DNA of 14,408 bases from a bacterium (GCA_025774805.1 JALGZR010000100.1:1-14408), one strand, 5' to 3'. Positions 356 through 9,132 are shown, counted from the first letter of the stretch. Numbers and translations are program-made. Notes: generated by a model from the letters alone, not told the origin.

Positions 356-1090
356 ATGGCCCCCCCCGAACCTCTCGGAGAGCGGTGGCCCCACCGCCTC
401 GAGACGCTTCTGGGCGAAGTGCGCGCCGCACCGGGTGGCGAGCGCGAGGAATCCGCCCGGCGCGACATTTGGGTAGCCCTCAACCTCTGCGTCGGGCGCT
501 ACTTGCGCCTCCACGCGCCCCGCCTCGGCCGCTTCGCGCGCGAGGACCTCGAGGATCTCGCCTCCCAAAAGTCCTTAGAATTGATCCGCAATCTCGATAC
601 CGGAGTAGGAGCCCTGAGGGGGCTCACGGCGGCGGACCTGCCCGGGTTCGTCTCCACGGTCGCGCGGAACGCGCTCGTCGACCGGCTCCGAGAGGGGGAA
701 CGCTACTCTCGGCCCGTGGACGAGGAGGAGGAGGTGGACGAAGTGATCGGTATGCGAGTGCCGTCGCCCGAACGCTCGGACGCCGACGTCGAGCGAAGAG
801 AATTCGCGGAGGCGTTGCGAGATTGCGCGCAATACCTGAGCGATCGCGATCGGCTCATGTGGTTCTTCCGGGTCTTCTACGACATGCGAACGAAGGACAT
901 CGCGAAGCACCCCGAGGTCGGCGTGAAGCCCGGGCTGGTGGACGTCGTGCTCTCGAACGTCCGGAAGAGCATTCGCGAGTGCATGAGGCGGCGCGGGTAC
1001 GAGCCGAGGGACATGCCGTGCGACGCGTTCGTCGAGCTGTGGAGAACCTTCCGCATGAAGACGGTCGCCGAGATGGAGGCGAAGACGTGA
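356..1090 (+). CDS. Sigma-70 family (ECF-like) RNA polymerase sigma factor
   Basis: This 244-residue protein has the two-region layout of ECF sigma factors. A region-2-like part (about residues 35-118) includes FVSTVARNALVDRLRE, the typical end of region 2 where the -10 element is recognised. An acidic linker follows (DEEEEVDE, 123-130). A region-4-like part (about 148-212) comes next, with LSDRDRLMWFFRVFYDM and a putative recognition helix before the basic RECMRRRGY. A C-terminal extension of about 30 residues is unusual for a minimal ECF factor. ATG at 356 was chosen because the homology-like region starts soon after it and a -10-like hexamer sits just upstream; the frame is open further upstream, so the start is not certain. 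The stop overlaps the GTG of the next gene (GTGA). With the anti-sigma gene directly behind it, it is most likely the regulator of its own operon and other targets. Confidence 0.8.
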   Translation: MAPPEPLGERWPHRLETLLGEVRAAPGGEREESARRDIWVALNLCVGRYLRLHAPRLGRFAREDLEDLASQKSLELIRNLDTGVGALRGLTAADLPGFVSTVARNALVDRLREGERYSRPVDEEEEVDEVIGMRVPSPERSDADVERREFAEALRDCAQYLSDRDRLMWFFRVFYDMRTKDIAKHPEVGVKPGLVDVVLSNVRKSIRECMRRRGYEPRDMPCDAFVELWRTFRMKTVAEMEAKT

Positions 1091-1848
1091 GCGCGTCCAC
1101 CGAGTCGACTCACTTCACGGAGGATTCCTGCCTCGAGCTCATCCTCGGGCTCCTGACCGATTTCGAGGCGACGCTCATGGTCGAGCACGCCGCGAGCTGT
1201 GCCCCCTGTGCCGAAATGCTCCGCGCTCGCTCGGCCGAGGTCGAAACCGCCGCCGCGAGCATGCCGCCCGAGCTCCTTCGTCCGGCAACCCTGCGGGCCG
1301 AGGCGGCGGCCGCGAAGGCGGGCGCCGGCTTCTTCGAGCGGCTGCGCGCTGCACTGTGGCCCACGCGCCTCGGGTTCGCCACGGCGGCCGCGGCTCTGTT
1401 GCTTCTCGTCGTGCTGCCGAGAACGCTGCGCGATACTCCTACCGATCTTCTCCGCTCGATTCCCCGTCCCGGCGAGGAACTCCAGCTTCGCATCGGCTCA
1501 GGAGGTTCGCCCGAGCTCTCTGTTGCCATCGATGCGTACGACCGAGGGGACCTGGATAACGCCGTGCACATGCTGCAGGAGCTCGAACTCGCCGAGCCGC
1601 TCGAGTCGCTTCGGCGCGTCTACCTCGGCAACGCCCTCGCCAGGAGCGGAGAGTACGCGAGGGCCGTGGACGCGCTCGAGTCAATCCCGTTCGATCTCGT
1701 GCCCGATCCCTGGTCGAGCGAAGCGAGGTGGACGCTCTACGTGGCGCTGCTCGAGGACGGCCGTGCCGGGGGCGCGGACTCCCTCCTGAGGGTCATCGCG
1801 AAGGAGCCTGGTGACGTCGGCGACCGCGCCCGGGAGCGGATCGAATGA
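1087..1848 (+). CDS. Membrane-anchored zinc-finger (ZAS-type) anti-sigma factor with TPR-like outer domain
   Basis: The start is GTG at 1087, overlapping the sigma stop by 4 nt, with GGAGG at 1075-1079 giving a normal spacing. The 253-residue product has three parts. An N-terminal cytoplasmic domain carries HAASCAPC (His34, Cys38, Cys41), the HX3CX2C signature of zinc-binding anti-sigma factors, and Cys15 may be the fourth ligand. A single hydrophobic span (about 95-110) follows Trp-Pro-Thr-Arg. The outer part, from about residue 134, contains helical repeats resembling TPRs (AYDRGDLDNAVHMLQELEL, then YLGNALARSGEYARAVDALE). By family knowledge, the N-terminal domain would bind and hold the sigma factor encoded just upstream. 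The inferred topology puts the TPR-like part outside the cytoplasm, where it could sense a signal or meet the exported protease encoded next. Confidence 0.8.
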   Translation: MSASTESTHFTEDSCLELILGLLTDFEATLMVEHAASCAPCAEMLRARSAEVETAAASMPPELLRPATLRAEAAAAKAGAGFFERLRAALWPTRLGFATAAAALLLLVVLPRTLRDTPTDLLRSIPRPGEELQLRIGSGGSPELSVAIDAYDRGDLDNAVHMLQELELAEPLESLRRVYLGNALARSGEYARAVDALESIPFDLVPDPWSSEARWTLYVALLEDGRAGGADSLLRVIAKEPGDVGDRARERIE

Positions 1849-4670
1849 CTCGGCGGCTGGTCGTCGGCCTCGTCTTGGGGGCGATCGCGGCCGGCGCGCA
1901 GACGACCGGGACATCGGGACCGCTGGCGGAAGCCGACTCGCTCACGGCCGTCATCGACGCGTACATGGAATCCGGCGAGTACTCGGCAGCGGAGGAAGCC
2001 GCGCGCCGGCAGCTCGAGATTCGCACCCGGCGTCTCGGAAATACGAGCCGGGAGGCCGCCGAGACCGAGCGGGCCCTCGCGAGCGTACTCTGGAAACAGA
2101 GCCGATACTCCGAGGGTGAGACGCTCGCACGCCGGTCCCTCGAGATCACGCGCGAGCTCGCCGGCGACGATCATCCCGATGTCGCGGAGACCCTGAATGT
2201 CCTTGGGCTCTTGCTCATGGCGCAGGGGGAACGGAAGGAAGCGGAGGGCCTCTACCGGGAGGCGCTCACGATCTTCCGCAGGAACCACGGCGACACGCAC
2301 CACACGATCGCGATGTGTCTCAACAATCTCGGCGCCGTGCGCGGCGAGGTGGGAGATTCGGACGGTGCCGATCTCTACTACCGAGCGGCGCTCGCGATGA
2401 ACCGGAAGCTCCTCGGCGAGGAGCATCCCACCGTCGCGCGCAGCCTTCACAACCTCGCGTTCCATCTCTCGCGCACCGATCCGATCCGCGCCGAGGAGCT
2501 CTTCCGGAAGGTGCTGGAGATGCGGCGACGGCTCCTGGGCGAGGAGCACGCGGACGTCGGGCTCACCATGCAGCAGCTCGCCGCGTCGCTGCACGCGCAA
2601 GATCGGACGGAGGAGGCGCTGGCCCTCGCAAACGGTGCGCTCGCGATCTACCGCAGGTCGTTTCCGGACGGTCACTGGTGGACGGCATGGGTCCTCGGAG
2701 ACCTGGCCCGGTACGCGGTCGCGGGACGCGACTTCGTGGCCGCCGAGCGGCTCGCCCGCGAGTCCGTGGAGCTGAAGAAGTCGATCTTCGGGGAGCGCCA
2801 TCGGGAGGCGCAGATCGCCCTCGGCATCCTGCGCACCGTCCTTCTGAAGGCCGGCCGGCACGACGAGGCCGAGCGTATGGCGCGCCGAGTCATGGAGCTG
2901 GGACCGGCGCCACGAGGCGGACACGCCCGTGAGCTCGATGCCCTCGCTTCGATCGCCGGCGTGCGGGGTGAGTTCGCCATCGCCGAATCCCTGCAGGCAC
3001 AGAGCTGTCGCGAGCTCGATACGTACCTCGACAGAACCACGGATCGCTTCCGCTGGTACGAGTGGAGCTCCGCTCAGTGCGACGCCCTGGCGGCGCTTCG
3101 GCTCCAAGCGGGAAAGACGGACCAGGCGTGGCCGGCGGCGGAGAGAGCGCGGGCCCGCTCTCTGGCGGACTTGCTCGCGGTCGCCCGGGAGCGAACCGTG
3201 CCTCCGGACGAGCTCCGTGAGGAGGAATCGCTCGCACGTCGAGTGGCCCGTCTGCAGGGTGAGGTCGAAGCGCTGGCGCCGGGAGCCGACGACGGCACCG
3301 CGGGCGCGTACGAGAGGGCGCACCAGGAGCTTCTCGACGCCGAGGCGGCGTTGAGCGCCCACCGGCATCGCTTGAGTCGGCGGTACCCGATCGTGCAGGG
3401 AGAACAGTATTCGCTCGAACGGATCCAGGCGACCCTCTCGGAGCGAACGGCGATCGTCGGTTGGCTCGACGTCAACCCGCACGAGGTGCTCCCGATGTCG
3501 TGGGGGTACGTCCTGCGCAACAGGGGACCGGTGCGATGGGCTCCCGTCGAGACGGGCGACGGCGACGGTCCCACCGGGCGCGCCGCGCACCTCCGCGAGG
3601 CGCTGCACTTCGCGGCGGCCTGGCCCTACCGGCTCGGCCGCGGAGAAAAGATCGCCCCGGCCGCGGAGGCGGTCTGGCGGGAGCGGCTGGCTTCCCTCGA
3701 GCCGTACCTCGAAGGGGTCGAGGAGCTCGTCGTCATCCCCTCGGCGCCGCTCTTCGGAGTTCCCCTGGGAGCTCTGAAGGACTCGGACGGGCTCTGGATC
3801 GAGGATCGCTTCGCGATCTCGTACGCACCTTCCGCGACGATTCACGCGTGGCTCGCCGCGCGGCCGCAGGGCAGGACGCCCGCAGGCGCGAGGGCGCTCG
3901 CTCTCGGGGATCCGCCGTTCGCACCGGACCACTTGCGGTCGTCCGCAGTCGGCCCGCAGAGCGGAGGCGTCCCCTTCGACGTTATTCTGCGGAGCGCCCT
4001 CGCGGGTGACAAGAAGGCGATCGCCCGCCTACCCCGCCTTCCCCGAACGCGACACGAAGTGCAGGCGGTCGTCTCGTACGTGCCCCAGTCGTCCCTCCTA
4101 CTGGGCCCGGACGCCTCGGAGCAGGAGCTCGTGGAGCTCGTGGATCGCGGTGCGCTGCGGGAGTACAGCCACCTTCACTTCGCCACGCACGCACTGGTCG
4201 ATCGCCGTTTCCCGGAGCGCTCCGCCCTCGTCCTTTCCCAGATCGATCTTCCGGATCCGCTCGAAGCGGCTCTGTCGGGCCGGAGAATCTACGACGGCCT
4301 CGTTACCGCGAAGGAGATCGCCGCCGAGTGGGAGCTCGACGCGGACCTCGTCACGCTCAGCTCCTGTCAATCCGCGCTCGGCCGGGAGCGGCGCGGAGAG
4401 GGCTACCTCGGGCTCGCGCAGGCTTTCCTGCATTCCGGAGCCCGGACCCTCCTCGTCAGCCTATGGCCGGTGGACGACGCCGCCACGGCGCTTCTCATGG
4501 CCCGCTTCTACGAGAACCTCTTCGCGGAGACGAAGCCCCGCTCGAAGGCGCGGGTGCTCCAGGACGCGAAGCGCTGGCTCCGGGAGTACACGGACGAGGA
4601 GGGTCGGCGCCCTTTCCAGCACCCCGCCTACTGGTCGGCGTTCATTCTGATCGGGGATCCGCGCGCGTAG
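1845..4670 (+). CDS. Exported TPR-CHAT domain protein, predicted caspase-like cysteine protease
   Basis: ATG at 1845 overlaps the anti-sigma stop (ATGA), which implies coupled translation. The 941-residue product begins with MTRRLVVGLVLGAIAAGAQ, a short signal peptide with a likely cleavage after about residue 18. Residues about 35-400 hold a run of roughly 42-residue kinesin-light-chain-type TPRs, recognisable by recurring LGEEHPTVARSLHNLA-like units. An acidic/basic helical stretch (about 446-520) may be a coiled coil. The CHAT domain fills about 530-941. It includes VIPSAPLFGVPLGAL, then HLHFATHA with His782 and LSSCQSALG with Cys841, the expected catalytic His/Cys pair, and ends in HPAYWSAFILIGDP. 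CHAT proteins are clan CD peptidases related to caspases and separases. The operon partners suggest that the anti-sigma or a related envelope protein is the substrate; this is inference. Confidence 0.88.
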   Translation: MTRRLVVGLVLGAIAAGAQTTGTSGPLAEADSLTAVIDAYMESGEYSAAEEAARRQLEIRTRRLGNTSREAAETERALASVLWKQSRYSEGETLARRSLEITRELAGDDHPDVAETLNVLGLLLMAQGERKEAEGLYREALTIFRRNHGDTHHTIAMCLNNLGAVRGEVGDSDGADLYYRAALAMNRKLLGEEHPTVARSLHNLAFHLSRTDPIRAEELFRKVLEMRRRLLGEEHADVGLTMQQLAASLHAQDRTEEALALANGALAIYRRSFPDGHWWTAWVLGDLARYAVAGRDFVAAERLARESVELKKSIFGERHREAQIALGILRTVLLKAGRHDEAERMARRVMELGPAPRGGHARELDALASIAGVRGEFAIAESLQAQSCRELDTYLDRTTDRFRWYEWSSAQCDALAALRLQAGKTDQAWPAAERARARSLADLLAVARERTVPPDELREEESLARRVARLQGEVEALAPGADDGTAGAYERAHQELLDAEAALSAHRHRLSRRYPIVQGEQYSLERIQATLSERTAIVGWLDVNPHEVLPMSWGYVLRNRGPVRWAPVETGDGDGPTGRAAHLREALHFAAAWPYRLGRGEKIAPAAEAVWRERLASLEPYLEGVEELVVIPSAPLFGVPLGALKDSDGLWIEDRFAISYAPSATIHAWLAARPQGRTPAGARALALGDPPFAPDHLRSSAVGPQSGGVPFDVILRSALAGDKKAIARLPRLPRTRHEVQAVVSYVPQSSLLLGPDASEQELVELVDRGALREYSHLHFATHALVDRRFPERSALVLSQIDLPDPLEAALSGRRIYDGLVTAKEIAAEWELDADLVTLSSCQSALGRERRGEGYLGLAQAFLHSGARTLLVSLWPVDDAATALLMARFYENLFAETKPRSKARVLQDAKRWLREYTDEEGRRPFQHPAYWSAFILIGDPRA

Positions 4671-4956: not shown

Positions 4957-7093
4957 CTACCGGCCGAGATGGACGAACTTCGCCGTCCTTGTCCCCTCCG
5001 GGGTCGTCAGCCGCGCGAAGTACACGCCACGACCAATGAGGCGGCCGGCCGAGTCCCTGCCCCGCCACGCGATCTTCCGATGACCGGCCCGCATCTCACC
5101 CGACAGGAGCGTCGCGATGCGACGTCCGGCCACGTTGAAGATCTCCAGGCTCGCCCGTCCCGACATCGGGATCGAGAACGAGAGCGTGTAGTCTTGCGAC
5201 CCACCGCCCGGCTTCGGGAAGACGGACAGCGCCCGGTTCTCCACCGCCGGCCGTGCGTAGTAGACCGTCGTGTAGCCTTCCGGGATGACACCCGCCGGAA
5301 CGAGGGTCGCGTTGTTGATGTCGTCGCCGATGTCCTTGGCGATCTCGTCGTTCGACGAATCGCCGTCGTTGATGCAGTCGGCGACGTACTGGAGCGCCTG
5401 GCTCGCCGTACTCCCGTCGTCCGACACCACGGAGAACGTCTGCAGCTTCCCGGACGCGAGGTTCAGCAGGAAGGCCAGGTACTGCTGCTTCGCCTTCGCG
5501 AGCATGCCGGCATTGCCTTTGACCGAGAGGGTCGCGCCGATCGTCACGAGATCGAGCGGCTCCGGACCGTTTTCCCCGTCCATGAAGGTCACGCCCTCCA
5601 CGGCGATGCCGTTCAGCTCGTTCTCGTGGAAGTGATTGAAGATCGCCGCGGGGAAGTCCGTCTCCATGTCCGGCTCGGACTCCTGGGCGTTCCCCCGGTT
5701 CCTGAGGTAAACGTTCGCGTTGTGCTTCCAGTAGCCCATCGAACGCGCGTTCCCGGTCGGGGTCAGGCAGGCCAGGCTGAAGTCGACCGTCTGGTCGTGG
5801 TCGAGCGTGAGCGATGCGCCGCCGACTCCGGGGCTCACCGCCTCGAAGCCCAGCGGGATGGAGATCGAGATCTCCCCGGTATCGGCATCATCGGACCACA
5901 CGACGCCGTCGATCGAGTAGGCGCCGGAGGCGTCCGTCGTGTCGCTGTCGAACGCGCCGGAGGCGTCCACGAGACCGACGATGACGTTTTCCATCGGGCC
6001 CGTGCAGCCGCTGCTCACGACACCGGACACGGCGACGCGCGCACACTCGAGCGTGACGTCGACGCCGGTCTGATCCGCGTCCAACGGAACACTGATCGGA
6101 GCTGCAGCCTCGTAATCGGCCGGAGCCGCCATCGAGATCTGTCCCGAATTCTCCGAGGACGGAACGTCCGCGAACGAGTAGCTCCCGTCGCCGGCCGTCG
6201 TCGTGGTGCTCGAGCCGCCCTCGCCGTCGGTCAGCGTGACCGTGATCCCGCCGAGCGGACCGTCGCAGTCGGAGCCGACGGAGCCGGAGACGGCCACCGC
6301 CGCGGCGGACGGACCCACCCAGAAGTTGTCCACGATGTGGGCGTCGGCGGAGTTGACACGGCCGCCCTCGGGCAAGTTGAACACGGGTGCGTCGATCGGA
6401 AAGCCGACGCCGTCGTAGAAGTTCACAGTCGAGTAATTATCGCGGCCGAGCGCAACTGACTGCGCGCTGATCACCACCCGGACCGGGACCGTGACCCCGG
6501 TCGGGGAAGCCGGGACGGTGAACGTGGGGGACGTGAACACGCCGCTGAACGAAGGAGTCGTGATGGACGCGAACGGCTCCGCGGCCGGCCCCCACCAGAT
6601 GCCCTGGCCGGGAGGATACGTGTAGCGACCGATGAGATAGATGTTGTCGGGTGTGGCCACCTGCAGCTGCATGCCTCCCCGTGGGGTGTTACCGGTGACG
6701 CTCCCGCTGACCTTGACGTTCATGGCGACGGTCATGGTCGTGAGAGTCGGATGACAGAACGTCATGTCGTACCACACGTCGGTCGACAAAGTCCGGTAGG
6801 CGAGGGTACTCGTGTTGTCCCTCTGGTAGACGTGTTGCGCGACCCCGAGGAACTTGTTGGGGAGATCGTGCCCCCTCCCAGTGACTCGATACCACTCTGT
6901 AGTGGCTGTTGAGCACCTCGTGGCTGTAGTCGAGGGCGGGGGGGATGGACTGCGTGAAGTTGTAGTCGTGGGAGTTGTTTTGGTAGCTCCCCTGGCTGGC
7001 GCCAGCGGTCCCGGCTGCCTCGGCCGCCGGGGCGGTCATCAGGAAGACTGCGAGGAACGCGAGAACAGGACAGTCCAGTCGAATCTGTCGCAT
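4957..7093 (-). CDS. Large secreted surface protein with repeat domains and FlgD-Ig-like C-terminus, frameshifted near its start
   Basis: The natural start is ATG at 7093, with GGAAGGAG just upstream (7100-7107). It encodes a signal peptide (MRQIRLDCPVLAFLAVFLM, then an AAEAAG cleavage region). That frame reads sensibly as far as HEVLNSHY. The sensible sequence then continues one base over as TEWYRVTGRGHDLPNKFLG and stays open to the TAG at 4957. The body contains two related beta-rich units of about 100 residues (VSGSVGSDCDGPLGGITVTL and VSGVVSSGCTGPMENVIVGL) resembling SdrD_B/carboxypeptidase-regulatory folds. Next come a GNARSMGYWKHNA motif and a region of unknown type. The end (about the last 75 codons) has SLEIFNVAGRRIATL and GRGVYFARL, a FlgD-Ig/T9SS-like C-terminal domain. 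Total length would be about 712 residues. The only other usable start for the body frame is TTG at 6789, which would lack a signal peptide. The role is probably cell surface or extracellular; no enzyme motif was seen. Confidence 0.7.
6895..6905 (-). other. Apparent frameshift site separating signal peptide from protein body
   Basis: Minus-strand codons for NSHY (signal-peptide frame) run directly into codons for TEWYRV in the next frame at the sequence CACTACAGAGTGG. Losing two bases from an ancestral CACTACACAGAGTGG, or gaining one base, would explain the change. A C7 tract on the minus strand (6938-6944) lies just upstream, but the reading after it (PALDYSHEV) still looks like protein, so it is less likely to be the site. 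Confidence 0.6.
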
Positions 7094-7305: not shown

Positions 7306-7887
7306 ATGTCCCCCCAGAGCGACGTGACCCGAATCCTCCAAGAGGTGAGCAACGGGGCGGAGGCCGCGGTCGACCGGCTCCTCCCCCTCGTCTATGCGGA
7401 CCTGCGGCGGATCGCCCAGAAGTACCTCGCCGGCGAGCGCCCCGACCACACGCTGCAGGCGACCGCGCTCGTTCATGAGGCCTATCTGCGACTCATCGAT
7501 CAGAGCCGGGCGGAGTACCGGGACCGCGCGCACTTCGTCGCGGTCGCCGCCCAGGCCATGCGGCGGATTCTCATCGACCACGCCCGCCGGCACGGCCGCC
7601 GGCGAAGAGGCGGCGATCGGTTGCGCGTCACGTTCGACGAGGCGCTCACCGTCTCGGCCGACCAGCCCTCGATGGACCTCATCGCCCTGGACCTCGCACT
7701 TACGAAGCTCGCGGAACAGGAGCCGCACAAGGCCAGAGTGGTCGAGATGCGCTTCTTCGGCGGCCTGTGCGTCGACGAGGTCGCGGAGGTGATGCACGTC
7801 TCCTCGCGCACGGTGAAACGGTACTGGCAGTATGCGCAGGCGTGGCTCTACCGCGAGATGGCCGGCGACGGAGCCCCCGGCTCCTGA
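7306..7887 (+). CDS. ECF RNA polymerase sigma factor, TIGR02999-like
   Basis: ATG at 7306 follows GGAGGG (7295-7300) at good spacing, giving 193 residues, a normal length for the family. Region 2 includes LLPLVYADLRRIAQKYLAGE, then TLQATALVHEAYLRLID and HFVAVAAQAMRRILIDHARR. This sequence pattern is characteristic of the ECF group modelled as TIGR02999 (Acidobacteria/Planctomycetes type). Region 4 has ARVVEMRFFGGLCVDEVAEV followed by SSRTVKRYWQYAQAWLYREM, a clear helix-turn-helix. In this group the sigma gene is usually followed directly by a Ser/Thr kinase gene rather than an anti-sigma gene. Here the next frame starts one codon on (TGAATG) with only a kinase-like N-terminus before changing into an oxidoreductase, so the usual partner seems lost or moved. 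Confidence 0.9.
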   Translation: MSPQSDVTRILQEVSNGAEAAVDRLLPLVYADLRRIAQKYLAGERPDHTLQATALVHEAYLRLIDQSRAEYRDRAHFVAVAAQAMRRILIDHARRHGRRRRGGDRLRVTFDEALTVSADQPSMDLIALDLALTKLAEQEPHKARVVEMRFFGGLCVDEVAEVMHVSSRTVKRYWQYAQAWLYREMAGDGAPGS

Positions 7888-8235
7888 ATGCCCGGTCGCT
7901 GGCCCCTCGAGGTCCCGTTCGGCGCGTTCCGTTACGAGGAGAACCGCTCTGTCATGACCGCGAGAGGACACCCTCGGGCCGCGGAGGTCTTCTCCCGCGC
8001 GCTCGAGATGCCGACCGAAGAGCGACCGCGCTTCTTGAAGGAGGAGTGCGGCGACGACGCGGCGCTCAGGGCCGAGGTCGAGTCGCTGCTGGAGGCACAC
8101 CGGAGGGGAGGCGAGTTCCTCGGATCGGAGAAGGCCTGCCGCCGCCGCAACGCGCTGGTCTGGAGCGCCGTTCTGGATGGGCTCGACGAGGCCGCACCCG
8201 AGGGGGATCATCCACGTTCGCGGAGAGGAGGCGCG
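7888..8235 (+). pseudogene. Remnant of a Ser/Thr protein kinase N-terminus, fused in frame to the NmrA-like gene
   Basis: From ATG 7888, or more likely ATG 7954 with GAGGAG at 7936-7941, the frame encodes the leader found in kinases that follow TIGR02999 sigma genes: RAAEVFSRALEMPTEER, then ECGDDAALRAEVESLLEAH. The complete kinase at 9181-11793 begins the same way (RVSEIFARAL and ACGDEEALRGAVLSLL). The match fades after about 8125 (GGEFLGSEKACRRR), where the kinase glycine loop should soon follow, and no kinase motif appears. The frame stays open into the next gene, so a 414-residue fusion could be made, but a strong internal start at 8236 argues that the two parts are separate. Most simply, a deletion removed the rest of the kinase. 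Confidence 0.6.
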
Positions 8236-9132
8236 ATGAACCTCTTGGTCGGGGCCACGGGCGTGCTGGGCGGAGAGATCTGCCGGCGGCTCCGTGACGG
8301 CGGAAACGATGTCCGCGGCCTGGTGCGATCCGATTCACCTCGTGAACGGGAACTGGCCGACCTCGGAGTCGAGATCGCTACGGGGGACCTCAAGGATCCC
8401 GCGAGCCTCGAGGTCGCCTGTCGGGGGGTGCAGCGTGTCATCTCGACCGCCACCTGCATCGCGTCACGGCGGCGGGGGGACACCCTGAGGAGCGTCGACC
8501 ACGACGGCCAACTCGCCCTGGTCGACGTGGCCCGGAAGGCGGGCGTGGAGCACTTCATCTTCGTCTCTCTGACGATCGCGGACGAGTCGGAGGGCCCGGC
8601 CGCCCGGTCTCCGTTCGTTCGCTACAAGCGGGAGGTGGAACGGACGGTCCGCGAGAGCGGGATGTCGTGGACGATCCTTCGGCCGGGCCCCTTCATGGAA
8701 ACCATGTTCAGCCCGCTCGCGGGGTGGAACCTGGAGAATGGCCGGGTTCGCGTGGTCGGCTCGGGGCGCGCAAAGGCGAGCCCGATTTCCTTGAAAGACG
8801 TTGCCGAGTTCGCCGTGGCCGCCTGTCGAGAGCCCGGCATGAGGGGCCGATGCCTCACTCTCGGCGGACCACAAGCTCTGTCCGCGCTCGACGCGGTGAA
8901 AGTGTTCGAAGACGTGACCGGTAGGAAACTGAAAGTGCAGCACACGCCCGTTGCGCTCTTGAGGGTCGCGAGCGCGCTCCTGCGCCCCCTTCATCCACCG
9001 ATTTCATCGATTCTCGCGCTGGGTTCCGGACCGGAGGTCGATCACGTCGTCGACATGGGTCCGGTTCTGGCGGAGTTTCCGATCGAGCTGACGACGGTTC
9101 GAAAGTTCGCCGAGGAACTCGCTCGAGGCTGA
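8236..9132 (+). CDS. NmrA-like/atypical SDR NAD(P)-binding protein
   Basis: ATG at 8236 with GGAGAGGAG (8222-8230) starts a 298-residue protein. It begins MNLLVGATGVLGGEICRRL, a beta-strand plus the GxxGxxG dinucleotide-binding loop at residues 6-12. VRGLVRSDSPRERELADLGV and ATGDLKDPASLEVACRGV follow, as in NmrA-like and complex-I NDUFA9-type atypical short-chain dehydrogenases. Further on are FVSLTIAD, a YKREVE motif (the Tyr-Lys pair in an altered setting) and SGMSWTILRPGPFMETM. The substrate is unknown; members act as redox sensors, epimerases or quinone/sugar-nucleotide reductases. A 15-nt repeat begins on the base after its TGA. It lies in the operon position where a kinase would be expected. 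Confidence 0.85.
   Translation: MNLLVGATGVLGGEICRRLRDGGNDVRGLVRSDSPRERELADLGVEIATGDLKDPASLEVACRGVQRVISTATCIASRRRGDTLRSVDHDGQLALVDVARKAGVEHFIFVSLTIADESEGPAARSPFVRYKREVERTVRESGMSWTILRPGPFMETMFSPLAGWNLENGRVRVVGSGRAKASPISLKDVAEFAVAACREPGMRGRCLTLGGPQALSALDAVKVFEDVTGRKLKVQHTPVALLRVASALLRPLHPPISSILALGSGPEVDHVVDMGPVLAEFPIELTTVRKFAEELARG

Follow-up and report, generated by a model that had tools for sequence, protein, structure and literature searches.

Membrane anti-sigma factors with an outer domain, as in RseA/DegS and RsiW-type systems, receive their first cut outside the membrane. In Craspase, a TPR-CHAT protease, a sigma inhibitor and an ECF sigma factor are encoded together, and Csx29 cuts Csx30, thereby relieving CASP-sigma (PMC10028731). 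For the ECF54 group, protease control has been proposed from nearby CHAT, subtilase and carboxypeptidase-domain genes, and the group is described as lacking an anti-sigma factor (PMC8999054, citing Casas-Pastor 2021 and Huang 2015). Our literature searches found CHAT tied to ECF sigma factors only in the ECF54 and Craspase papers. The idea of protease control read from ECF gene context is not wholly new, being partly known already from ECF54 (PMC8999054).

The window analysed here is a whole contig of 14,408 nt from a genome of 5.1 Mb (284 contigs, about 96% complete). Close relatives of the host are Candidatus Eisenbacteria MAGs, and we treat it as a relative of Candidatus Eisenbacteria. Positions 356–4670 carry three co-directional, overlapping genes, which encode a sigma factor, an anti-sigma factor and a TPR-CHAT protein; all features of the trio lie on the plus strand.

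Composition of the three-gene locus

The trio comprises a divergent ECF sigma factor (356–1090; 244 aa), a membrane anti-sigma factor assigned from sequence, Pfam and an AlphaFold model (1087–1848; 253 aa) and a TPR-CHAT protein that is predicted to be exported (1845–4670; 941 aa). The GTG start of the anti-sigma gene overlaps the TGA stop of the sigma gene in a GTGA junction at 1087, and the anti-sigma and CHAT genes meet in an ATGA at 1845. Coordinates and domain matches agree with the initial annotation, which had described such a trio with both overlaps.

The sigma factor has zero Pfam matches even at E=1. It matches NCBIfam TIGR02937 (sigma70-ECF) with E=1.2e-9, just under the curated cut-off. 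Its AlphaFold model has a pLDDT of 72 from a six-row alignment, and a fold search with this model ranked first six matches at E≤0.001, all of which are ECF sigma factors; AlgU and E. coli sigmaE follow close behind. The profile match and the fold search both point to an ECF factor with sigma regions 2 and 4 only, which upholds the earlier reading of this gene as a sigma factor though Pfam is blank. Its orthologues form a narrow set: among 386 genomes searched, matches at E≤1e-12 occur only in the host genome (twice), G001 and G151, and every sigma gene in the set adjoins a CHAT gene.

The anti-sigma factor carries an HX3CX2C zinc motif (H34, C38 and C41; 1186–1209), followed by a transmembrane helix at about residues 93–111 (1363–1419) that is placed by hydrophobicity and the AlphaFold model, a juxtamembrane stalk (1420–1509) and an outer TPR domain (1510–1845). 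The outer domain matches TPR_19 (Pfam, E=7.8e-6), and its best fold match is the YbgF TPR domain (TMt 0.80). The outer part is modelled with pLDDT above 90, and the stalk is loose. A gene that adjoins the sigma gene, the zinc motif and the single membrane helix are the marks of a membrane zinc anti-sigma factor, as the initial annotation had proposed together with the TPR-like outer domain; the zinc ligands are lost in the orthologues L022 and L049.

Pro126 and Arg135 of the stalk are invariant in the alignment of seven window-type orthologues, and the stalk is a candidate cleavage region. The conserved arginine (1489–1491 in the window), often within TRG or VRG, is also found in other TPR anti-sigma factors, including those of L161, L093, L101 and L104, independently of CHAT linkage. 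The stalks of 46 of 60 TPR anti-sigma factors contain an Arg-small motif, and a control segment contains one in 16 of the 60 (p=6e-8). The motif is equally common in TPR anti-sigma factors with a nearby CHAT gene (35/46) and in those without (11/14); the arginine was therefore rejected as a mark of a CHAT cut site and is kept as a lead only.

The third protein matches PF12770 with E=3.5e-62 (210.9 bits, against a gathering score of 24) over residues 606–938 (3660–4658). Its TPR repeats, at about residues 71–435 (2055–3149), match TPR_12 and TPR_10 in Pfam as several TPR units. The predicted catalytic residues His782 (4188–4190) and Cys841 (4365–4367), already noted as intact, are invariant among its relatives, and both are retained in 155 of the 165 CHAT proteins aligned at these columns. 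The domain score and the dyad place the protein in the TPR-CHAT peptidase family as a predicted peptidase. The putative signal peptide spans residues 1–18 (1845–1898); the hydrophobic, Sec-like N-terminus reads MTRRLVVGLVLGAIAAGA-QT, and the orthologues have different yet similarly hydrophobic N-termini. Export was scored by N-terminal hydrophobicity, and on this score the signal peptide is plausible; the initial annotation had named a failed signal-peptide prediction as grounds for refutation. Searched with defence-system models, the CHAT protein matches only generic TPR and, weakly, BovA, and PD-T4-6 matches on a nearby kinase are those of generic Ser/Thr kinases.

The window shares with Craspase the joint encoding of a TPR-CHAT protease, a sigma inhibitor and an ECF sigma factor. 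In contrast to Craspase, it has no RNA guide, its CHAT protein is predicted to be exported rather than cytosolic, and its inhibitor is a zinc-motif, transmembrane and TPR protein instead of a soluble Csx30-like one. A PF03787 search of the host genome, which is about 96% complete, found no RAMP gene that could stand for the Cas7-11 effector with its crRNA, in line with the earlier description of a Craspase-like set of parts without CRISPR. A sequence search against structures with the window CHAT domain alone did not retrieve Csx29. Because a RAMP gene and a Csx30-like inhibitor are absent, we do not claim membership in type III-E. The membrane-bound anti-sigma factor with an outer domain is also a likeness to RseA/DegS and RsiW; the candidate site-1 protease differs, being an operon-encoded clan CD cysteine peptidase rather than a general PDZ serine protease.

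Recurrence of the linkage in the host and in other phyla

The host genome contains eight CHAT loci. Two further triplets of the exported type lie in tandem on contig C253 (L021), which brings the number in this genome to three, and contig C120 (L024) carries a soluble version. Orthologous triplets are present in other Eisenbacteria and in Krumholzibacteriota (L032, L035, L049, L022 and L030). Two samples were collected more widely: a CHAT-profile search of GTDB contigs, which gave 78 loci, and CHAT matches from 145 genomes that were not chosen for sigma factors. A sigma gene lies within 2.5 kb of CHAT in 46 of 81 cases in the first sample and in 25 of 89 in the second. In the second sample, sigma genes occupy 24 of the 468 slots up to three genes from CHAT, compared with 1 of 316 further off (p=4e-5), and peak at slot −2, which corresponds to the commonest order, sigma/anti-sigma/CHAT. 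Sixty-six of 67 sigma labels checked match TIGR02937.

The linkage was also followed from the anti-sigma side. A TPR anti-sigma profile was run against the genomes in which 21 of the loci lie, most of them Bacteroidota, and CHAT was searched for in 16 of these genomes. In the 16, which were picked as each having one CHAT locus, 46 of 60 TPR anti-sigma genes have a CHAT gene no more than 9 kb away, compared with 1.6 expected; at least 30 of 44 remain near CHAT when one anti-sigma gene per genome is removed. The association is non-local, being met again in many phyla in the absence of CRISPR. The conservation of the triplet in relatives, which the initial annotation had left to be checked for co-occurrence and gene order, is borne out by the orthologous triplets and by the linkage in the second sample and from the anti-sigma side. 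CHAT and ECF genes are both abundant in these genomes, which would favour chance or the hitch-hiking of unrelated genes. We regard this explanation as scarcely credible, since the linkage, from whichever side it is followed and in different phyla, is far more frequent than expected, the window genes overlap and a fusion exists (L134, below). The two additional host triplets and the linkage in other phyla likewise place the association beyond chance.

Gene arrangements in the first sample are mixed, with the sigma gene upstream on the same strand in 16 cases, downstream on the opposite strand in 14, upstream on the opposite strand in nine and downstream on the same strand in seven; many CHAT-linked TPR anti-sigma genes are divergent from or convergent with CHAT. 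The mixture indicates that the link is more than co-transcription in an operon. These arrangements bear on the possibility that CHAT is the output of the system, in which the sigma/anti-sigma pair would sense stress by itself and control an exported TPR-CHAT protein that acts on envelope proteins, on invaders or on the cell itself. The operon structure of the window and the divergent arrangements that share an intergenic region (L022 and L049) fit autoregulated expression, CHAT domains are found in many effectors, and in 64 of 89 cases in the second sample CHAT has no sigma gene nearer than 2.5 kb. However, convergent cases, in which CHAT stands tail-to-tail with the anti-sigma/sigma pair, have no common promoter region, the linkage persists when TPR-type anti-sigma factors are the starting point, and the best shared promoter-like motif sought upstream of four orthologous sigma genes scores no better than shuffles. 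We regard an output role as the main rival reading, possible though less likely than not.

Other layouts were seen beside the triplets. In L041, L046, L048 and L051 an exported CHAT gene lies directly behind sigma, and two of these loci, L041 and L051, encode a zinc-motif protein, a likely anti-sigma factor, divergently upstream. One complete genome (G051; L108, L109 and L133) has more than 10 CHAT genes, several of which form tandem clusters, with no sigma genes called nearby.

Judged by gene context, the window resembles ECF54 in that an ECF sigma gene has a conserved CHAT neighbour and invites a proposal of protease control. It differs from ECF54 in the predicted export of CHAT, in a membrane-spanning anti-sigma factor with TPRs in its outer domain, and in that no subtilase adjoins the triplet, whereas ECF54 is described with subtilase and carboxypeptidase-regulatory-domain genes and without an anti-sigma factor. 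The soluble variant is closer. In L024, L067, L072, L097, L142, L152 and L195 CHAT is followed by a secreted subtilase-like protein, assigned to S8 in L024 (E=2.5e-44) and judged by sequence in the others, and the middle protein has a carboxypeptidase-regulatory-like end (L097, E=0.0013). This variant, which occurs in the host (L024) and at loci of Rubrobacter and Anaerolineales, reproduces the published context of CHAT, subtilase (S8) and carboxypeptidase-regulatory-like protein. Several of the middle proteins start with a zf-HC2-like domain (e.g. L142, E=1.4e-5), which suggests that ECF54-like systems may possess an anti-sigma factor after all.

Matching predicted compartments and fused forms

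Among 55 linked pairs, CHAT has an export-like N-terminus with 41 of 43 membrane anti-sigma factors and lacks a signal peptide with all 12 soluble ones; export was labelled from N-terminal hydrophobicity, and L072, in which the middle gene is uncalled, was labelled from its clade. Two loci either depart from the pattern or are mis-annotated: L106, in which a membrane anti-sigma factor is paired with a CHAT protein that shows no clear signal, and L116. On the CHAT tree the compartment label needs four changes, three of which are forced by supported branches; the AU test does not reject one origin for the soluble type (p=0.14), and independent pairs agree in 3 of 3 cases (p=0.25). The compartment match rests on one to four evolutionary events, too few for significance, and is suggestive only. 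CHAT and the outer domain of the anti-sigma factor are predicted to share a compartment.

In one locus the two proteins are a single chain. The gene behind sigma in L134 (6335–9907; genome G138) encodes zf-HC2(x2)-TM-TPR-CHAT in a single frame of 1191 residues, with a predicted topology that leaves the zinc fingers inside and CHAT outside. The same layout, at 41% identity, is present in L206 (G146) with one in-frame TGA between the membrane helix and the TPRs. The fusion places CHAT on the anti-sigma factor itself, which counts against CHAT as the output of the sigma factor.

Small CHAT proteins of 260–275 aa without TPRs adjoin TPR anti-sigma genes in L161 (7942–8727), L083 (5863–6687) and L089 (5932–6744). 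Each has a signal peptide and a C-terminal hydrophobic helix, and the L161 gene overlaps its anti-sigma gene by ATGA; the anti-sigma factor might supply the TPRs that these proteins lack. Their position, and the presence of TPRs, which are protein-binding repeats, in both window proteins, would suit a non-proteolytic co-sensor, in which the CHAT TPRs bind the TPR domain of the anti-sigma factor and alter its grip on sigma without cutting. We think this improbable, as the widespread retention of the His/Cys dyad described above would be hard to explain if catalysis were not needed. In L169 (6387–9611; G044) a CHAT gene lies beside sigma and a soluble anti-sigma gene, and the N-terminus of its product resembles an adenylate/guanylate cyclase domain (TILFTDIKGSTAFFE).

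A putative envelope sigma switch

We favour, at roughly even confidence, a reading in which CHAT is an envelope protease that inactivates the anti-sigma factor, with the three genes forming one envelope signalling unit. The analysis documents the parts, how often they are linked, compartments that are predicted to match, a fusion that occurs in nature and a catalytic dyad that is intact; contact between CHAT and anti-sigma, cleavage, the signal and the liberation of sigma are what we infer. The zinc-finger end of the anti-sigma factor would hold sigma inactive at the membrane, and export would bring TPR-CHAT to the side of the membrane that carries the TPR domain of the anti-sigma factor. A signal sensed via the TPRs of either protein would bring CHAT to the anti-sigma factor, whose outer part, in the stalk or the TPR domain, would be cut. 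The remaining stub would be destroyed by the usual intramembrane and cytoplasmic proteases of the cell, and sigma would be freed. This logic, to us the most likely one, has precedents in RseA/DegS and in Csx29/Csx30/CASP-sigma (PMC10028731).

More tentatively, and somewhat short of an even chance in our estimate, TPR-CHAT may be a dedicated site-1 protease for TPR anti-sigma factors, and the trio would then belong to a CRISPR-independent class of envelope sigma switches spread widely over Bacteroidota, Eisenbacteria, Acidobacteriota and other groups, with Craspase and ECF54 as its cytosolic relatives. If so, the Craspase-style freeing of a sigma factor by a protease would turn out to be a frequent means of signalling in bacteria and not a peculiarity of CRISPR, many exported CHAT proteins would gain a function, the activation of a large group of TPR-type anti-sigma factors would be explained and ECF54 would be placed in a wider frame. 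The protease switch is directly testable in cultivable Bacteroidota, e.g. Tenacibaculum and Runella.

Two neighbouring regions of the window were also annotated. At 7306–9132, an ECF sigma gene (PF07638, E=3.2e-59) precedes a frame whose first 110 or so residues resemble the N-terminus of an ECF-associated Ser/Thr kinase and which continues into an NmrA-type protein with a probable start at about 8243; either part of a former kinase is left here or the start of the frame has been wrongly set. On the minus strand, the product of 4957–6789 carries CarboxypepD_reg/SdrD repeats and, at its C-terminus, a sorting domain of T9SS type A (TIGR04183, 23.6 bits; cut-off 23), which suggests type IX-like secretion in Eisenbacteria.
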